The notes below the pieces were generated by a model. The model had not been told where the DNA came from. It did no database searches and saw nothing but the letters and a program-made list of their open reading frames with translations. Positions 15,269 through 46,353 of a stretch of DNA of 64,000 nucleotides are shown here, piece by piece (position 1 is the stretch's first letter; the number at the start of each line of letters is the position of its first letter). The position numbers were made by a program, and so were the translations under genes. The DNA is from Flavobacterium sp. 9 (GTDB lineage Bacteria; Bacteroidota; Bacteroidia; Flavobacteriales; Flavobacteriaceae), in NCBI RefSeq assembly GCF_002754195.1, contig NZ_PEEU01000001.1, positions 3,658,001-3,722,000 of the forward strand, written 5' to 3'.

Positions 15269-15406
15269 TGCTTATTTTTTTTCATACAAACTCTAATAAT
15301 TTATTTTAAAGATGAAAATTTTAGAATTTGTATCTGTAGAATCTGTGTGTAAACAAAACTTCGCGACTCTGTGACTTTGAGAGATTTTTTTTAATTAATT
15401 TTAGAA

Positions 15407-15530
15407 GCTATTCCCGCTATCCGCTTGTATCTTTTCCTGGCTAAAGAAGCCAGAAAAAGGATACCGCTTCAAACGAAGTTCACTGAACTCCGATTAAAAT
15501 GAAAGTTAAGTGAAGTAATCGGGGCTAAAA
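15407..15530. repeat. Dispersed flavobacterial intergenic repeat (copy 1)
   Basis: Core words TTCCCGCT, TATCT, AGGATA-CCG-CTTCAA and ATCGGGGCTA occur in the same order as in 57499-57557. This copy has an internal hairpin (TGGCT...AGCCA around 15438-15452) and about 47 extra bases before the closing ATCGGGGCTA. No coding potential. Confidence 0.75.
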
Positions 15531-30952: not shown

Positions 30953-31003
30953 ATTAAACTTCTGTTTTTTTTGTTTTTATAAGCAGAAATTTAACATAAC
31001 ATA

Positions 31004-31023
31004 CTATTTTGATAGGGTAATAG
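31004..31023. promoter_or_regulatory. Candidate operator CTATTTTGATAGGGTAATAG
   Basis: Interrupted inverted repeat (CTATT...AATAG) between the divergent metK and TonB-receptor promoters. Its right part, GATAGGGTAATAGA (31011-31024), is identical over 14 nt to 46341-46354 upstream of the TauE/SafE-cysH unit. Confidence 0.5.
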
Positions 31024-31042
31024 AAATTATTTCTGTTTTTGT

Positions 31043-31095: not shown

Positions 31096-31161
31096 ATGAA
31101 ATTAACAATGTGCAATTTGTCTTGTAAGATGCCGGAGCCTTCCGCAGAGACACTGTTGTAG
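31096..31161 (+). CDS. Cys/Met-containing leader peptide ahead of the TonB receptor, 21 residues
   Basis: ATG at 31096, TAG at 31159-31161. The peptide starts [15 protein letters not shown]: Met at 1, 5 and 12 and Cys at 6 and 10 lie in its first twelve positions. It begins about 15-20 nt after the predicted transcription start. The last codons contain GCAGAG (31144-31149), complementary to CTCTGC in the 5' arm of the following terminator, so ribosome position can decide which hairpin forms. Confidence 0.65.
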
Positions 31162-31187
31162 TTTTTTTTCAAAAAAATATACATAAG

Positions 31188-31215
31188 ACCTCTGCTAAAC
31201 AGCAGGGGTTTTTTT
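31188..31215 (+). terminator. Attenuator terminator between leader peptide and TonB receptor
   Basis: ACCTCTGCT (31188-31196) pairs with AGCAGGGGT (31201-31209), then seven T. CTCTGC (31190-31195) can pair instead with GCAGAG (31144-31149) inside the leader ORF as antiterminator. Confidence 0.8.
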
Positions 31216-31283: not shown

Positions 31284-34130
31284 ATGAAAAAAAATCTAGT
31301 AATAGCTTTAGGTCTTTTGACATTTTCAGGCATTTATGCACAGGAAAATAAAAAAGAACAAGACAGCTTAAAGAATAATGAATTGTCTGAAGTGACAATA
31401 GTTGGGTCAAGAAGTAAAAATAGAGTAAAAACAGATGTGCCGGTTCCGGTTGATGTTTTTAATATTTCTGAAATCACCAAAGGCTCGCCACAAACCAGTG
31501 TGACTCAGATTTTAAATTATGTTGCGCCATCGTTTACCAGTAATGCAACTTCTACCGCAGACGCAACAGATCACGTAGATCCGGCGCAATTAAGAGGTTT
31601 GGGGCCAGATCAGGTTTTGATTTTGGTAAATGGTAAACGCAGACATACAAGTGCGTTAGTAAATATTAATGGTTCTCCGGGAAGAGGTTCTGTTGGAACA
31701 GATTTAAATGCAATCCCATCATTTGCGATCGAAAGAATCGAAGTTTTGCGTGATGGAGCAGCTGCACAATACGGTTCAGATGCAATTGCGGGAGTTATTA
31801 ATATTGTATTGAAAAAGAATGCCAATTTTATTTCGGGAGGTATTCAATATGGAACTAATTTATCTTCGGGATCTAATAATTTTAAAGGTGGAGCCGATGG
31901 TCAAACGCTTCAGGCAGATTTGAATTACGGAACTTCTTTGGGTAAAGCAGGAAGTTTCCTGAATGTTACTGCCAGTGCCGTGACCAGACAAGCCACAAGC
32001 AGAGCAGGAATTAGAAGTAATCCAATTTTTAATGGTTACAATGCTGTCGAAAACAGAGCCGCTCAGGATGGAGTTCAAATAAATTCTTTGTTCAGTAATA
32101 TTAATAACACAGCAAATTCGGCACAAATTCTTAGTTCGTTAAAGCAATATGCGCCACAAGTAAGTTATTTTACACCGGCACAACAAACTGCAATTTCTTC
32201 GGCTACGACTATTGCTCAAATGCAGACAGCTTTGAATTTTGATGCAACCAATAATGAATTAGCGTACAGAGGTCAGCAAAGAAGTGATTATAATATGAGT
32301 GTTGGTCAGTCAGAATTGGCTTCGGGACAAGCTTATTATAATGCAAAATATCCGCTAAGTGATATTACATCTTTATATTCTTTTGGTGGAGTATCTTATA
32401 GAAACGGAAAATCATATGCCTTTAACAGATTGCCAAATGGTTCCGGAACTTTCACGCAAGTGTATTCAAATGGTTTTTTACCGGAAATAGAATCTGATAT
32501 CCTGGATGCTTCTGCAGCAGTTGGAGTTACAACTCAGTTATTTGGTTTTGATACGGATTTAAGTACAAACTTAGGAACGAACTCTTTTAAATATGATGTA
32601 AACAATACTATTAATGCAACTTTAGGAACGAATTCGCCAACAAGTTTTGATGCTGGTAAAGTTTCGTTTCTACAAAGTACAACCAATTTAGACTTCAGTA
32701 AAAAGTATGATGTTTTAGAAGGATTGAACGTTGCATTTGGTGGAGAATTCAGATATGAAAACTATCAAATTAAAGCTGGAGAAGAAGCTTCTTATGGATT
32801 GTATGATATAAACGGAAATTTAGTTTCGGGAATTTTGCCAAGTAATTCACCATTAATTGTTACAGACTTTTTTGGAAACAAACGTGGAGCAGGAGCGCAG
32901 GGATTCTCAGGATTTCAACCATCTGATGCTAAAGAAAAAGATAGAAAAAGTGGTGCAGCTTATATTGATTTAGAATTAAATGCTACAGAAAAATGGCTTT
33001 TAAACGGAGCTGCACGTTATGAGAATTATTCTGATTTTGGAAGTACAGTTACCTTTAAATTAGCTTCACTTTTGAAAATAACGGATAATATCAATTGGAG
33101 AATTTCAGGACAAACAGGTTTTAGAGCGCCATCATTACAACAAAAATATTTTGAAAGTAGTTCTACACAATTCATAAACGGTTCTCCATATCAAGTAGGA
33201 TATTTTACAAATGATTCACAAGCCGCAAAAAGTATTGGAGTTGAAAATCTGAAACCTGAAAAATCTAAAAGTATCAGTACAGGATTTACATTCAAAATTC
33301 CTGAAGCAAACATTACAATTGCAACAGATGCTTATTTTACAAGAATCGACGACAGAGTTGTATTAACAGGACAATATGCAAGACCAACAACTGCGCAGAT
33401 AGATGCAGCAACGTCGCCGGCACAAAAAGAAGCTTTAACATTGTTTCAACAGGCATTTGACTTAAAAGGTGTAGAAAGAGCTTCGTTCTGGACAAACGGA
33501 ATCAACTCTGAAACTAAAGGTATTGATATTGTGATTTCTCAGAAATATGATGTTATTCCTGATTTCGTTATTCGAAATGATCTTGCTTTAAGTTATAACG
33601 AAACAAAAAGAGTAGGAGATTTAAATGTTCCTCAATCTATTATTGATGCAGGAGGAGAACCTTATAAATATTCATTTTTTCCGGAATCAAGCAGAATTTA
33701 TTTAGAAGAAGCAATTCCAAAATTGAAAGCAAATTTAATGACGACTTTCAGTATTAAAAAACTGGACATCTATTTAAGAAACAGTTATTTTGGAAAAGTT
33801 ACCGATCCTGGAGCAACAGATGTAAACTTAGACGGATCATCATCAGTTTACGAACATCCTGTTTATAGCGCAAAAATTGTAACAGATTTATCATTAGGAT
33901 ATCAAATCAATGAAAAATTCAGATTTACAGTTGGGTTTAATAATATAGGAGACGTTTATCCAGATAGAAATAATCCTGCAACTCCAGCATTTACGAATAC
34001 AACTCCAACATTATCGCCTGCACCAAGTACAGATTTAAGCAACGCAAATCAGTTTGCTTATTCAAGAGCGGTATCACAATTTGGATTAAACGGAAGATTT
34101 GGTTTTGCAAGATTAAGTTTCAAGTTCTAA
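31284..34130 (+). CDS. TonB-dependent receptor, probably for a sulfur compound
   Basis: A 948-residue outer-membrane receptor: signal peptide [20 protein letters not shown], TonB-box-like [12 protein letters not shown], plug domain ([16 protein letters not shown] ... [26 protein letters not shown] ... [26 protein letters not shown]), and a barrel ending [10 protein letters not shown]. There is no carboxypeptidase-like N-terminal domain and no SusD partner, so a small-molecule rather than polysaccharide ligand is likely. The transcript begins with a Cys/Met leader peptide and attenuator and shares its promoter block with the metY unit, which suggests regulation by sulfur amino-acid status; the ligand itself is inference. 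Divergent from metK. Confidence 0.88.
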
Positions 34131-34330: not shown

Positions 34331-34392
34331 AAGAAGAATGCCAGTCTTTATAAGGTTTCTGAAAATTTTAATGTTAAATATCAATTTTTGAT

Positions 34393-34436
34393 TTGGTAGT
34401 TCTAAAAATAGTTTCTATATTTACTCTATCAAATTA
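34393..34436 (+). promoter_or_regulatory. Promoter of the metY leader
   Basis: TTG at 34393-34395, 20-bp spacer, TATATTTA at 34416-34423, then ATCAAATTA at 34428-34436 inside CTCTATCAAATTAGTCGAG, an imperfect palindrome. It aligns without gaps to 31043-31086. Confidence 0.65.
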
Positions 34437-34470
34437 GTCGAGTTTAAAAAAGAGAATTAATTTAAATAAA

Positions 34471-34557
34471 ATGAAAATGAAAACAATAGCGAATAATATG
34501 ATTATATGTTGTGAGATGATGCAAATGTGCATCCAAAATCGCTGTTGCCAAAAGTGA
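34471..34557 (+). CDS. Cys/Met-rich leader peptide ahead of metY, 28 residues
   Basis: ATG at 34471, TGA at 34555-34557. The middle reads NNMIICCEMMQMC and the end NRCCQK: six Met and five Cys in 28 codons, far above chance. The last two sense codons contain CCAAAAG (34548-34554), exactly complementary to CTTTTGG (34594-34600) in the 5' arm of the following terminator. Stalling in the CC/MM cluster (codons 13-20) would leave this segment free; finishing translation would cover it. Confidence 0.75.
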   Translation: MKMKTIANNMIICCEMMQMCIQNRCCQK

Positions 34558-34588
34558 AAGAGTAAATCTTTGTTATAGTTAGAACTAT

Positions 34589-34628
34589 AAGCCCTTTTGG
34601 TAGCCATCCGAAAGGGCTTTTTTTTTTT
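34589..34628 (+). terminator. Attenuator terminator of the metY unit
   Basis: AAGCCCTTTTGG (34589-34600) pairs with CCGAAAGGGCTT (34608-34619), 7-nt loop, then a run of T. It lies 24 bp before the next small gene. Confidence 0.88.
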
Positions 34629-34651
34629 CAACACTTTTAAAATTTCAAATT

Positions 34652-34843
34652 ATGAGAACATTAAATTCAATTGCAGTAGAATATTTATTGAGAAACGATT
34701 CTCAAAACAACAATAATAAATCTGAAGATGTATCAAGAGAAGTTACAAGACTAAATGTAGAACAAGACATAAAAAGTCAAAAATCATTATTGCTTCTGAT
34801 GTATAGTCTTGAAGAAGAAGGAGAAGATTTTTTTATACAATAA
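34652..34843 (+). CDS. Small protein (63 residues) of an SLLxLMYS family, copy A
   Basis: Begins MRTLNSIAVEYLL and ends SLLLLMYSLEEEGEDFFIQ. It shares length (63), the start M(R/S)T(L/I)N and the C-terminal SLLxLMYSxExE...FI with the protein at 38165-38356, while the centre is low-complexity and divergent (Asn-rich here). Both genes sit just after an attenuator terminator in a sulfur amino-acid unit. No Cys, no signal peptide; too short for a membrane protein except for the hydrophobic SLLLLM stretch. I know no named family. Conservation at both ends argues for a real gene. Confidence 0.75.
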   Translation: MRTLNSIAVEYLLRNDSQNNNNKSEDVSREVTRLNVEQDIKSQKSLLLLMYSLEEEGEDFFIQ

Positions 34844-34912: not shown

Positions 34913-36217
34913 ATGAGCACACAAAAATTTGCAACAAACGCACTACACGCAGGACACGATGTTACTAAAAATGCAGGAACAAGAGCAGTGCCTATTTATC
35001 AAACATCATCATATGTATTTAATAATTCAGATCACGCTGCCAATTTATTTGGTCTTGCCGAAGCCGGATTTATCTACACTCGATTAAATAATCCAACAAA
35101 CGATGTTTTAGAACAACGATTAGCAGCGCTTGAGGGCGGAATTGGAGCTGTAGTTACAGCATCTGGAGCATCGGCAATTTCGACAGCATTTTTGACCTTG
35201 CTAAAAGCGGGAGATCATATCGTGGCTTCAAATAGTTTGTATGGCGGAACTTATAATTTGCTGAATGTAACTTTACCACGATTAGGAATTACAACCACTT
35301 TTGTAGATCCGTCTAAACCGGAAAACTTCACAAAAGCGGCTAAAGAAAATACAAGAGCATTCTTTGTAGAATCTTTGGGAAATCCAAAATTAGATGTATT
35401 AGATCTGAAAGGAATTTCGGCGGAAGCCAAAAACTTCAAAGTTCCTTTTATTGTAGATAATACTGTTGCGACACCATATTTATTAAACCCAATTGAATAT
35501 GGAGCAAATATCGTGATTCATTCTTTAACTAAATATATTTCAGGAAACGGAACTTCACTAGGAGGTGCTATTATTGACGCCGGAACTTTTGATTGGTCAA
35601 ACGGAAAATTTCCTGAATTCACAGAGCCGTCTGCAGGATATCACGGATTAGTTTATCACGAAGCTTTAGGAAATGCAGCTTTTATAGCAAAAGCAAGAAT
35701 CGAAGGATTGCGCGATTTTGGTGCAGCTTTAAGTCCGTTTAATGCTTTTCAAATTATTCAGGGATTAGAAACTTTACCAATCCGAATTAAGAAACATAGC
35801 GAAAATGCTTTGGCTTTAGCCTCTTGGTTAGAGAAACAAGATGAGGTAGTTTGGGTAAATTATCCAGGTTTAAAAAACAATAAATATTATGATCTGGCGC
35901 AGCAATATTTGCCAAAAGGACAAAGTGGAGTAATTACTTTTGGACTTAAAGGTGGTTTTGAAGCTGCAAAAAAAGTAGTTGATGAAACAAAATTGTTCTC
36001 GCTTTTGGCCAATATTGGTGATACAAAATCATTAATCATTCATCCGGCAAGTACAACACATCAACAATTGTCTGACGCTGATCAATTAGAGACAGGAGTT
36101 TCAAAAGATTTAATCCGACTTTCTGTTGGAATTGAAGATATCGAGGATTTAATAGCTGATTTGCAAACCGTTTTCGCAAGCGTGACACAATCGCAATACA
36201 GCATTAATAAAAATTAG
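34913..36217 (+). CDS. metY: O-acetylhomoserine sulfhydrylase / aminocarboxypropyltransferase
   Basis: PLP enzyme that makes homocysteine from O-acetylhomoserine and sulfide. The 434 residues follow the MetY pattern: FATNALHAGHD, RAVPIYQTSSYVFN, GFIYTRLNNPTNDVLEQRLAALEGG, FVESLGNPKLDVLDL, and the PLP lysine in IHSLTKYISGNGTSLGG. The N-terminal ATNALHAG and longer C-terminal half distinguish it from MetB/MetZ (a MetZ homologue is at 42787). It is the enzyme gene of the attenuator-controlled unit with the small SLLxLMYS protein 70 bp upstream, so sulfide assimilation is tied to Cys/Met supply. Confidence 0.95.
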   Translation: MSTQKFATNALHAGHDVTKNAGTRAVPIYQTSSYVFNNSDHAANLFGLAEAGFIYTRLNNPTNDVLEQRLAALEGGIGAVVTASGASAISTAFLTLLKAGDHIVASNSLYGGTYNLLNVTLPRLGITTTFVDPSKPENFTKAAKENTRAFFVESLGNPKLDVLDLKGISAEAKNFKVPFIVDNTVATPYLLNPIEYGANIVIHSLTKYISGNGTSLGGAIIDAGTFDWSNGKFPEFTEPSAGYHGLVYHEALGNAAFIAKARIEGLRDFGAALSPFNAFQIIQGLETLPIRIKKHSENALALASWLEKQDEVVWVNYPGLKNNKYYDLAQQYLPKGQSGVITFGLKGGFEAAKKVVDETKLFSLLANIGDTKSLIIHPASTTHQQLSDADQLETGVSKDLIRLSVGIEDIEDLIADLQTVFASVTQSQYSINKN

Positions 36218-37723: not shown

Positions 37724-37754
37724 TTGCGTAATTGAAAAAATATTCGCACATTTG
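37724..37754 (+). promoter_or_regulatory. Candidate promoter of the third leader unit
   Basis: TTG at 37724-37726, 20-bp spacer, CACATTTG at 37747-37754, with AAAAAATATT just upstream as in the other two leader promoters (AAAAATAGTTT). The ATCAAATTA block is not conserved here. The leader ORF begins about 150 nt downstream. Confidence 0.45.
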
Positions 37755-37913
37755 TAATACCTCAAAAACACCAAGAAGATAAATTTAGTTTTCTAAATAA
37801 TAGTTATGTTGATCGGATAAAACCGTTGATGAATTTTATATCTTATTGATTTTGAAGAGAAAAAATAAGTAAAAATAATTCGGCAGTTTCGAGAAGCTTT
37901 TAAAGACAAACAA

Positions 37914-38015
37914 ATGCAAGATTTTTTTAAAATAGCAAGTAAATCAAAGATGAATAAATCCCTACAGATGAACAAGATGTTTAACGTCGCACGTATTTGT
38001 GTATGCGTCTGTTGA
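37914..38015 (+). CDS. Cys-rich leader peptide of the third unit, 33 or 21 residues
   Basis: In-frame ATGs at 37914 and 37950; TGA at 38013-38015. The C-terminus reads NVARICVCVC followed by stop, with Met also at several upstream positions. Cys codons start at 37998, 38004 and 38010. Three bases after the stop, CTAAAAG (38018-38024) can pair with CTTTTGG (38053-38059) in the terminator. A ribosome paused on the first Cys codon would leave this segment open, one at the stop codon would cover it. Confidence 0.7.
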   Translation: MQDFFKIASKSKMNKSLQMNKMFNVARICVCVC

Positions 38016-38047
38016 TACTAAAAGTATATATAAGTTGTAAAAAACTT

Positions 38048-38086
38048 AAACCCTTTTGGTATTAAAAACCCAAAAGGGTTTTTTTA
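38048..38086 (+). terminator. Attenuator terminator of the third leader unit
   Basis: AAACCCTTTTGG (38048-38059) pairs perfectly with CCAAAAGGGTTT (38070-38081), then a T-run. Its 5' arm shares CCCTTTTGG with the metY attenuator. A small AAGTT/AACTT hairpin precedes it at 38032-38046. Confidence 0.9.
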
Positions 38087-38164: not shown

Positions 38165-38356
38165 ATGAGCACAATAAACTACTTAAGAAAAAAACTTTTC
38201 AGAAGCAAAATCGAAAGAAATAATCCACCGCCAGTAAACGAGTTAATCCACCCAAGTTTCGGAATAACTGAAACAGATAAAAAAGCGGAGACAAAAGCAC
38301 CAAATTCATTATTGTTTTTGATGTATTCAAAAGAAAATGAAACTCTTTTCATCTAA
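38165..38356 (+). CDS. Small protein (63 residues) of an SLLxLMYS family, copy B
   Basis: Begins MSTINYLRKKLFRSKIE and ends NSLLFLMYSKENETLFI. It shares the MxT(L/I)N start, the SLLxLMYSxExE end and the exact length with the protein at 34652. The N-terminal third is strongly basic and the middle Pro-rich, unlike copy A. It follows an attenuator terminator by about 80 bp and precedes the SAM-I riboswitch of metX-thrA. Function unknown; no Cys residues. Confidence 0.75.
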   Translation: MSTINYLRKKLFRSKIERNNPPPVNELIHPSFGITETDKKAETKAPNSLLFLMYSKENETLFI

Positions 38357-38518: not shown

Positions 38519-38546
38519 CACCTTTAAGTTCAAAAACGTATTGAAA

Positions 38547-38653
38547 TGTTATAAAGAAAGGACGAGGGATTAGACCCGATGAATCCTTAGCAACCCTTCG
38601 TTAAATCGAAGAAGGTGCTGCATTCTACCACGCCCAAACGTGGAAAGATAACA
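38547..38653 (+). ncRNA. SAM-I (S-box) riboswitch aptamer upstream of metX-thrA
   Basis: S-box core words are in order: AAAGGACGAGGGATTAGACC, CGATGAATCCTTAGCAACCC, a TTCG...CGAA stem, AGGTGCTGCATTC, and GGAAAGATAAC. The outer P1 helix is TGTTAT (38547-38552) with ATAACA (38648-38653). Beyond the aptamer, CTTTCTTT (38682-38689) is complementary to AAAGAAAG (38553-38560), a possible alternative pairing; no terminator hairpin with T-run follows, so control may act on translation of the TTG-started metX. Confidence 0.92.
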
Positions 38654-38726
38654 ACAAGAATTTTCTAGTTTCACTCTAGTACTTTCTTTCTAATATTTCC
38701 ACATACAAATCAATTAATAAAAAGAT

Positions 38727-39716
38727 TTGAAATTGGAAAATATACCAAGTCCCATTATAATTCAAGATTTCATCACCGAAAGTGGTGCAACATATCTTTC
38801 ATTACCGTTAAGTTTTACGCTTTCTGGTTTGCCATTGCATAGCGCACCTATAGTTTTGGTTAATCATGCTTTGACAGGAAACGCTGAGGTAACTGGAGAG
38901 AATGGTTGGTGGAATGATTTAATTGGCGAAGAAAAAACAATCGATACCCAAAAATATACTATTCTGGCATTTGATGTTCCGGGAAATGGAAACGATTCGT
39001 TTATAATTGAAAATTATCTGGATTTTACTACCAGAGATATCGCCAGAATTTTTATAAAAGGTTTAGAAGCTTTAAATATTAGCCAAGTACATACCATTAT
39101 TGGAGGTTCTGTTGGTGGAGGAATCGCCTGGGAAATTCTTGCATTAGAACCTAATATTACGCAAAACCTAATTCCCATTGCGACAGACTGGAAATCTACA
39201 GACTGGATGATTGCTAATTGCTATTTGCAAGAGCAGATTCTGAATAATTCTTCAAGACCAATCGAAGATGCCAGAATTCACGCAATGTTGTGTTACAGAT
39301 CTCCTGAATCATTCAAAGAAAAATTTCAGCGTACAATCAATGCCAATCTTTCTGTTTTTAATATAGAAAGCTGGTTGGCACATCACGGTGAAAAACTACA
39401 AAAGAGATACCAATTGGCATCGTATAAATTGATGAACCAATTGCTTAAAACCATAGATATTACTAGAAATAGTGACGATTTTGAAACTTTAATGTCCAGA
39501 ACAAATGCAGCGATTCATATTATCGGAATCAATTCGGATTTGTTTTTTACACCAAAAGAAAATCGGGAAACTTTTCAGGACTTAAAAAAGTTCAAAGACA
39601 ATGTTTTTTATAGCGAAATAGATTCAGTTCACGGACATGACGCTTTTTTAATCGAGTACAAACAATTAGATCATTTACTTGCCGATATTTTTAAGGCAGA
39701 AACAATAGAAAAATAA
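38727..39716 (+). CDS. metX: Homoserine O-acetyltransferase family protein
   Basis: Alpha/beta-hydrolase-fold acyltransferase activating homoserine for sulfide incorporation. In 329 residues: HALTGNAEVTGENGWWNDLIG (oxyanion and substrate loop), nucleophile Ser 128 in IIGGSVGGGIAWE, catalytic Asp 271 in GINSDLFFTP, and His 304 in VHGHDAFLIEY. Acetyl rather than succinyl donor is presumed from the MetX fold and the adjacent MetY. The start is TTG; no ATG exists in frame near the N-terminus. It follows a SAM-I riboswitch, and thrA starts one base after its stop, so the pair is a tight operon supplying activated homoserine. Confidence 0.9.
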   Translation: MKLENIPSPIIIQDFITESGATYLSLPLSFTLSGLPLHSAPIVLVNHALTGNAEVTGENGWWNDLIGEEKTIDTQKYTILAFDVPGNGNDSFIIENYLDFTTRDIARIFIKGLEALNISQVHTIIGGSVGGGIAWEILALEPNITQNLIPIATDWKSTDWMIANCYLQEQILNNSSRPIEDARIHAMLCYRSPESFKEKFQRTINANLSVFNIESWLAHHGEKLQKRYQLASYKLMNQLLKTIDITRNSDDFETLMSRTNAAIHIIGINSDLFFTPKENRETFQDLKKFKDNVFYSEIDSVHGHDAFLIEYKQLDHLLADIFKAETIEK

Positions 39717-44790: not shown

Positions 44791-45201
44791 ATGCTTTCAA
44801 AGAAAACAAAATACGGAATTAAAGCCTTAACATATTTAGCCAGACGAGAAAATAATGATCCTGTACAAATTGCAGAAATTGCAAAAAGCGAACATATTTC
44901 AATTAAGTTCTTAGAAAGTATTTTATTACTACTTAGAAATTCAGGTTTTCTAGGAGCAAAAAAAGGAAAAGGTGGAGGTTATTATCTGATAAAAGATCCA
45001 AAAGATATCAGTATGGCCAAAGTATATCGTATTCTCGAAGGTCCAATTGCATTGCTTCCGTGTGCAAGTCATAATTTTTATGAAAAATGTGACGATTGTG
45101 ATGATGAAACTACCTGCGCAGCCAGACGTTTAATGACTGAAGTGAGAGATAATACACTTAAAATTCTTGAAAGTAATTCATTAGCAGATATTGCATTTTA
45201 A
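44791..45201 (+). CDS. Rrf2-family transcriptional regulator
   Basis: A 136-residue winged-helix regulator: KYGIKALTYLARR, IAEIAKSEHISIKFLESILLLLRNSGFLGAKKGKGGGYYL (recognition and wing region). After the dimerisation helix it carries four Cys, at 91, 100, 103 and 109 (C-x8-C-x2-C-x5-C); IscR-type members have three. A Fe-S or other thiol-based sensor is plausible. Family members include CymR, the cysteine-metabolism repressor of Firmicutes. Its placement amid the sulfate assimilation genes makes it the best candidate for their regulator; that is inference. Confidence 0.88.
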   Translation: MLSKKTKYGIKALTYLARRENNDPVQIAEIAKSEHISIKFLESILLLLRNSGFLGAKKGKGGGYYLIKDPKDISMAKVYRILEGPIALLPCASHNFYEKCDDCDDETTCAARRLMTEVRDNTLKILESNSLADIAF

Positions 45202-46292: not shown

Positions 46293-46353
46293 TTGATATT
46301 TAGAAATAAGTATTAATTTTGCATAGTAATCTATTAACCCGATAGGGTAATAG
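46293..46353 (+). promoter_or_regulatory. Promoter and palindromic operator candidate of the TauE-cysH unit
   Basis: TTG at 46293-46295, 18-bp spacer, TAATTTTG at 46314-46321. Ten bases downstream is an inverted repeat at 46331-46353 with arms CTATTAACCC and GGGTAATAG. Its position over the expected transcription start suits repression. GATAGGGTAATAGA here is identical to 31011-31024. Confidence 0.6.

Follow-up and report, generated by a model that had tools for sequence, protein, structure and literature searches.

A probable leader-peptide attenuator for methionine and cysteine supply upstream of metY in Flavobacterium sp. 9, one unit of an apparently multi-gene and often tandem system

Methionine genes are read by SAM riboswitches, T-boxes and repressors. 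At the stretch 34471–34628 in Flavobacterium sp. 9, which lies 5′ of metY, no Rfam family matched at gathering thresholds, the SAM-I riboswitch (RF00162) included. The window, i.e. the whole 64,000-nucleotide stretch of DNA that was analysed, is a sulphur-amino-acid cluster with metK and a SAM-II riboswitch, homoserine dehydrogenase, a metX-like gene after a SAM-I riboswitch, sulphate-reduction genes, metH and metF. Three units of one design were identified in it, A (31096–31212), B (34471–34628) and C (37914–38081), and their parts, the ORFs and the riboswitch between them and the genes after them are on the plus strand. A match to the Flavo-1 RNA was additionally seen at 15406–15484 on the minus strand.

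The ORF of leader B (34471–34557) translates to MKMKTIANNMIICCEMMQMCIQNRCCQK followed by a stop, and its 28 codons include five Cys and, with the start counted, six Met, as the first-pass annotation had read it. Ten of the 27 codons after the start specify Met or Cys, an enrichment of the kind that marks attenuators, and the Met+Cys fraction was the highest among the 373 ORFs of 15–45 codons on both strands of the window (binomial P of ca. 5e-7 for one random ORF of matching composition). The ORF is followed by an intrinsic terminator (34589–34628), in which a stem at 34589–34619 with 12 pairs and −18.0 kcal/mol runs into a T tract reaching 34628; the strong terminator claimed earlier was thereby recovered. 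The segment CCAAAAG (34548–34554) is exactly complementary to CTTTTGG (34594–34600), also as previously claimed, and with G-U pairs the complementarity extends to 11 bp and −12.7 kcal/mol between the antiterminator 5′ strand (34544–34554) and the antiterminator 3′ strand (34594–34604), the latter comprising 5′ arm and loop sequence of the terminator. The fraction of shuffled sequences giving as good a duplex was 0.02, and the fold of RNA 34440–34630 was better than those of 200 of 200 shuffles, with a z-score of −5.1. A leader hairpin GATGCA/TGCATC (34518–34533, −5.8 kcal/mol) possibly takes the role of region 1:2. The ORF, the terminator and the alternative pairing of leader B are far from chance.

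Upstream of the ORF, a putative promoter was located with TTTG at 34392–34395 and TATATTTA at 34416–34423, separated by a 20-nt spacer. The promoter of the first-pass annotation is predicted from the likeness of these two elements to what we take to be the Bacteroidota promoter consensus; in a −10/−35 scan, which does not cover Bacteroidota promoters, promoter-like sites were no commoner than in shuffled sequences. The presumed regulated gene, metY (34913–36217), encoding O-acetylhomoserine sulfhydrylase, was assigned by TIGR01326 (644 bits, cutoff 495). It lies 3′ of the leader as had been stated, but the first ORF past the terminator is a 63-amino-acid ORF (34652–34843) without a family match. 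A second 63-amino-acid ORF (38165–38356), which resembles the first by eye, follows leader C, and the two have similar C-terminal ends (LLLLMYS and LLFLMYS). Neither returned a Pfam or NCBIfam match, nor did the leader peptide return an NCBIfam match, and tblastn matches to both 63-amino-acid ORFs recur among relatives.

On these features and the comparisons given below, we read leader B as a ribosome-mediated transcription attenuator responding to the supply of methionyl- and cysteinyl-tRNA, with a probability of roughly 0.86. The reading draws, from sequence and comparison, on the ORF, its codon content, the terminator, the alternative pairing, the covariation of leader A, conservation and gene context, and we infer stalling, termination and the direction of the response as follows. 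With Met and Cys plentiful, the leading ribosome would pass the Met/Cys block, reach the stop and cover the antiterminator strand, upon which the terminator would form and transcription would end before metY. With Met-tRNA or Cys-tRNA short, the ribosome would stall in the block, 9–19 codons before the stop, and the free antiterminator strand would capture the 5′ arm of the terminator, allowing the polymerase to read through.

In relatives, metY was present in 37 of the 61 genomes of the genus and in 99 of the 149 family genomes, a set with a single genome for almost every genus. The first-pass annotation had made its proposal dependent on conservation of the leader as an ORF, a condition that the leader withstood: an A- and/or B-type element was found upstream of metY in 69 of 80 named loci, which were the best 80 of 579 matches and mostly from near relatives (A in 41, B in 62 and the two together in 34), with an ORF called in 40 of the 41 A elements and 61 of the 62 B elements. 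Units A and B were at most 60 nt apart, often 15–60 nt, in 23 of the 34 named loci carrying both, and 20 of the 80 had a further pair, A2 and then C at a distance of 41–77 nt, within 2.5 kb downstream of metY. Model R1 (type A) matched 49 and model R2 (type B) 37 of the 61 genus genomes, the own genome included, and in the family R1 matched 17 and R2 nine of 149 genomes, a few of these matches being chance-like (L171, L344). In the order, R1 matched 23 of 196 genomes, five of them outside the family. By eye, loci L171, L172, L344 and L346 resemble chance matches and were dismissed as leaders. Among 25 R1 matches outside the training genomes, 21 had an ATG-started ORF of 12–40 codons; these 21 ORFs, several from hosts closely related to the training genomes, all had internal Met, and 17 had Cys. 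Weak R1 and R2 matches in the own genome were mostly gene ends with terminators, and five were other leaders. An earlier scan of upstream regions for short ORFs with at least two Cys codons before a terminator (36 of 118 loci, some with chance ORFs) was abandoned as too strict, since it missed Met-only leaders and loci later matched by R1 or R2. Leader B of F. johnsoniae CI04 (L282) reads MKTIARKNMMCCSMMQMCIQSCCCQK, and a leader C is also present there. In F. psychrophilum DSM 3660 (L271), leader B starts with GTG, and leader A has lost its stop before the terminator, which makes it a counterexample to the attenuator design in A.

Leader B appears to belong to a system of several such units, often in tandem, that serves more than one gene. 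The leader A ORF (31096–31161; 92.6 bits with R1, a model that includes this sequence) has an antiterminator strand GCAGAG (31144–31149) with its partner CTCTGC at 31190–31195, a duplex that was not significant at this locus alone (0.105 of shuffles as good), and a terminator of −16.3 kcal/mol (31185–31212). It precedes a TonB-dependent receptor gene (31284–34130; PF00593 and PF07715). In some relatives such a receptor gene follows unit A, with unit B ca. 3 kb further on, and other relatives have A next to B; the receptor gene seems either to have entered an A-B tandem or to have dropped out of one. Leader C, MQDFFKIASKSKMNKSLQMNKMFNVARICVCVC (37914–38015, alternative start 37950), scored 50.3 bits and ranked second in the 6.3-Mb genome (E 1.4e-4) by the R2 covariance model, which was built from 23 B leaders with no C-type sequence included. 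Its antiterminator strand (38013–38024) pairs with 38053–38064 over 12 bp at −12.0 kcal/mol, and a terminator of −15.3 kcal/mol follows (38048–38081). Between leader C and the metX-like homoserine O-acetyltransferase gene (38727–39716; TIGR01392 at 180.7 bits, below the cutoff of 500) lies a SAM-I riboswitch (38546–38654; RF00162, 76.4 bits). The sequence 5′ of leader C (37751–37904) may be what is left, after decay, of another A-type unit, A2: local alignment was better than all 200 shuffles for four of six relatives, but no persuasive R1 match was obtained (9.7 bits, E 0.19 over 609 bases) and no terminator remains. Tentatively, A2 may have been lost from the window.

A fourth Met/Cys leader, leader D, MKNNNQNRMYYSCSMMMCCDVAMRMF, was found elsewhere in the genome before genes for a permease and for an ABC ATPase carrying a NIL domain, which we read as metNI-like. 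Such loci numbered 11 in the 61 genus genomes, the own genome included, and nine of them had this leader with a terminator-like hairpin, as judged by eye; the two without it (L239, L240) were the most divergent. The own TauE/sulphate-reduction cluster (from 46357 on) had no such leader upstream by eye. A motif like CTATTnnnnTGATAGGGTAATAG was observed at 31002–31024, upstream of leader A, and at ca. 46333–46353, upstream of the TauE/cysH cluster, and by eye a similar motif stood 5′ of the leader in those metNI loci that possess one; it is possibly a transcription-factor site, and an Rrf2-family gene is located at 44791–45201. The logic set out for leader B would apply alike to A (before the TonB receptor gene here, before metY in relatives), to C (upstream of metX) and to D (before the metNI-like genes). 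In the same genome, hisG, ilvA, ilvN and ilvD are preceded by leader ORFs of His, Ile or Ile/Val type (L151, L129, L139, L128) together with terminators, for which reason leader-peptide attenuation seems to be a general habit of this genome.

The alternative pairing was examined by folding with a ribosome mask in 27 A and 24 B leaders. With the A site at or upstream of codon −11, the mean number of antiterminator pairs was 7.7–9.4, and by the stop it had dropped to 0.1 in A and 1.3 in B, from 8.5 and 9.4 respectively at codon −11, i.e. in this model stalling freed the antiterminator and completion masked it. Antiterminator duplexes had a mean of −12.3 kcal/mol with the cognate terminators versus −7.1 kcal/mol with those of other subtypes, and 36 of 57 were better than shuffles at the 5% level (24 of 27 in A, 10 of 24 in B, two of six in C); the antiterminator excludes the terminator, strongly so in A and with weaker statistics in B and C. 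Covariation was counted for leader A only. Against shuffle controls that ignore kinship, the terminator helix of 53 A sequences had 41 two-sided changes and paired bases in 99.3% of cells, and the antiterminator had 13 and 90.3%, values reached by none of 500 shuffles. Double changes affected only two of the seven antiterminator pairs, 26 of the 53 rows were unpaired at the last position, and the antiterminator slid by +2 was nearly as good in covariation score (0.117 vs 0.141). Columns 68, 129 and 146 changed together as A-T-A in 30, C-G-C in seven and G-C-G in four of the 53 rows, the other triples being A-T-G (eight), G-T-A (three) and C-T-A (one). For the A leader hairpin (1:2), covariation was no better than with partners slid by −1, and hairpins were seen in single sequences. 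The claim of ribosome-mediated attenuation made in the first-pass annotation is, on the comparative side, supported by this covariation and alternative pairing together with conservation and codon content.

At metY, the leader and the SAM-I riboswitch excluded each other. Among 80 non-Flavobacterium metY loci, one per genus, SAM-I was found upstream on the same strand in 65, an R1 leader in nine, both in none and neither in six (L101, L105, L112, L116, L117 and L121, with SAM-II adjoining metY in L105); the chance of zero overlap was 2e-8 when kinship is ignored. None of 20 leader-bearing Flavobacterium metY loci had SAM-I upstream, and eight of the 14 with downstream sequence had it downstream of metY. 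A further set of named loci was picked according to leader status, and here SAM-I was upstream in all 11 loci without a leader and in none of nine with one; in this set L306 has only 167 bases upstream, and L303 is apparently the same genome as L067 of the 20-locus set. On the basis of this mutual exclusion across the locus sets, leader and SAM-I appear to replace each other at metY. As SAM-I still precedes metX, methionine status would also be read elsewhere.

The composition of the leaders bears on what would be sensed. In distinct peptides, with percentages that the choice of ORF biases upward, Cys and Met made up 10.8% and 16.8% in A (n=34), 17.4% and 20.4% in B (n=58), 5.5% and 5.9% in A2 (n=11), and 7.0% and 10.2% in C (n=36). 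The 19 window proteins had 0.54% Cys and 1.57% Met, and the enrichment of the two residues in A and B leaders of relatives was ca. 11- to 32-fold. With the switch point set where the ribosome begins to cover the antiterminator (codon −10 for A, −7 for B), Met and Cys together made up 47.2% of the codons before it in A (34 peptides) and 41.5% in B (58 peptides); after it, Met fell to 3.5% in A and 2.5% in B, and Cys stood at 2.4% in A and 24.1% in B. The late Cys positions of B were Cys in 30, 31 and 41 of 58 rows, with TGC:TGT ratios of 29:1, 0:31 and 41:0, and in relatives they swap to Arg, Ser or Tyr, the Cys codons there keeping one third base. One inserted base downstream of the sensor block in L251 and L270 changes the end of the reading frame to LLLPK, with CCAAAAG, CTTTTGG and the Met/Cys block before them retained. 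The terminal Cys codons of the leader, considered as a candidate sensor, were rejected on the mask model, the residue swaps and this frame shift: a ribosome there would cover the antiterminator, the residue varies, and the shifted frame keeps the pairing. From alignment and folding, the late cysteines of B probably act as antiterminator RNA, and the likely sensor is the upstream block MxxCCxMMxMC, in the window probably codons 10–20, MIICCEMMQMC (34498–34530), delimited by the folding model and by conserved Met/Cys columns. A clean rule of codon versus RNA is contradicted by the CC pair of columns 27–28, which is nearly all TGT (48:2 and 46:1).

The leaders of metY and metX are Met-rich, and some A leaders are without Cys. 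Before PAPS-reductase-family genes, an R2 unit in genome G038 (L223) reads NCCCAKCC, and an R1 unit from another family of the order, in genome G231 (L336), reads MCCMCMC. The composition of the leader thus appears to follow the downstream gene. MetY makes homocysteine, a precursor of methionine and perhaps also of cysteine. Leader B would read both Met and Cys, and Met at least as strongly.

A variant of the attenuator in which methionine alone is the signal and the Cys codons are incidental is rather unlikely, with these points in its favour: metY, metX and metNI serve methionine; the MM pair before the switch is present at both columns in 39 of 40 A leaders of the named loci, where the Cys columns reach 22, 27 and 31 of 40, one of the 40 rows (L271) being read in the wrong frame; and A leaders of other genera (G202, G168, G081, G067, and likewise G160 from a TTG start) have no Cys and five internal Met. 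One Cys column of B, the sensor Cys at column 41, is nevertheless invariant in 61 of 61 rows with both codons in use (TGT 17, TGC 44), and Cys abounds in the leaders that precede PAPS-reductase-family cys genes (MSKRIINKMSNCCCAKCC... in G038, ...MCCMCMC... in G231). It is very unlikely that the peptide itself is the sensor, for example by binding copper or some other soft metal as a nascent chain or small protein rich in Cys and Met, with arrest of the nascent chain governing termination. Composition alone would fit it, as CC and MM motifs look like soft-metal ligands, but the residues vary widely while Met/Cys density before the switch persists, some leaders lack Cys, the genes identified downstream belong to Met/Cys biosynthesis and uptake, together with a TonB receptor gene, and the His and Ile/Val leaders of the genome share the design.

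Two further explanations dispense with the leader ribosome, and to both we give hardly any credence. Intrinsic terminators are common between genes, and one of fixed strength might simply follow a spurious or unrelated short ORF without any regulation; against this, the ORF, its composition and the alternative pairing are kept across genera, and the element trades this position with a known regulator. The position, where SAM-I sits in other genera, and the good conservation of some nucleotides would likewise suit an uncharacterised metabolite-binding riboswitch that happens to hold an ORF. Such a riboswitch is opposed by the lack of an Rfam match at gathering thresholds, by RNAalifold, which gave no conserved fold besides the terminator and a weak 4-pair hairpin, and by conservation that tracks codons upstream and pairing downstream.

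As an attenuator of tRNA supply, leader B resembles the classical trp, his, ilv and thr attenuators of Proteobacteria, which consist of a leader ORF rich in the regulated amino acid, an intrinsic terminator and an antiterminator exclusive of it. The likeness lies in the leader ORF, the terminator, the antiterminator and the place before a biosynthetic gene, whereas leader B differs in its Met/Cys codons, in an antiterminator made of the last codons and the stop, in units that are often serial, and in its occurrence in Flavobacteriaceae. SAM-I (RF00162) occupies the same position before metY in most other genera examined and serves the same pathway; it reads SAM by an aptamer without an ORF, unlike leader B with its ORF. 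The Salmonella mgtCBR leader reportedly contains tandem attenuators with two short ORFs, proposed to act on transcription, and is comparable to the tandem units in its two ORFs, with unrelated genes and sequences.

Cys-reading leaders have been described in other groups. The uORFC-8-2 motif before cysS in Rhodobacterales, a uORF whose two Cys codons stand in tandem, combined with an intrinsic terminator, was proposed as a Cys-tRNA sensor (PMC8632094); it belongs to another phylum, controls cysteinyl-tRNA synthetase and, in the part of that paper available, comes without mention of Met codons, whereas leader B precedes metY and not cysS. In Mycobacterium and P. acnes, Cys leader peptides precede cys operons with the Cys run near the stop, and according to the accessible text no terminator hairpin was found and Rho was suggested (PMC1262725); leader B, with its strong intrinsic terminator, falls outside that class. 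Within the genus, structured 5′ regions before amino-acid operons of F. psychrophilum show clues of leader-peptide attenuation (PMC9723704); the accessible portion names no Met/Cys leader, the word methionine is absent from the main text, and the metY leader may overlap with the leaders reported there. The 5′ UTRs of B. thetaiotaomicron include short ORFs reminiscent of leader peptides, as far as the available part tells (PMC7366714), and the main text of Naville and Gautheret, as available, does not mention Bacteroidota (PMC2965389). Among the matches listed from a mostly open-access literature, neither a Cys/Met leader from Bacteroidota nor a leader peptide reading methionine was described. 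The suggestion of the first-pass annotation that such a leader was undescribed in Bacteroidota is tempered by the F. psychrophilum clues (PMC9723704) and by the Cys uORF with terminator in Rhodobacterales (PMC8632094). The class of mechanism is already known, and the new part would be the Met/Cys specificity, the tandem use and the exchange with a riboswitch.

If A, C and D work alike, they would form with leader B a sulphur-amino-acid attenuator regulon standing in place of SAM-I at metY. We put forward, at somewhat less than even odds, a Flavobacteriaceae regulon in which the codon mix of the leader would set the Met/Cys sensitivity of each gene, serial attenuators on one transcript would form a two-stage, two-amino-acid gate that needs stalls on both, and the replacement of SAM-I at metY would have changed the sensed quantity from SAM to charged tRNA. 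The tandem units offer a natural series of one-gate and two-gate arrangements for a given leader and gene in close relatives within Flavobacterium, to which the laboratory species F. johnsoniae belongs, and the leaders offer a way to assign genes such as the TonB receptor at 31284 to sulphur-amino-acid supply. With one family using two solutions before metY, a riboswitch or a leader peptide, the exchange between them would be mappable on the tree and testable.
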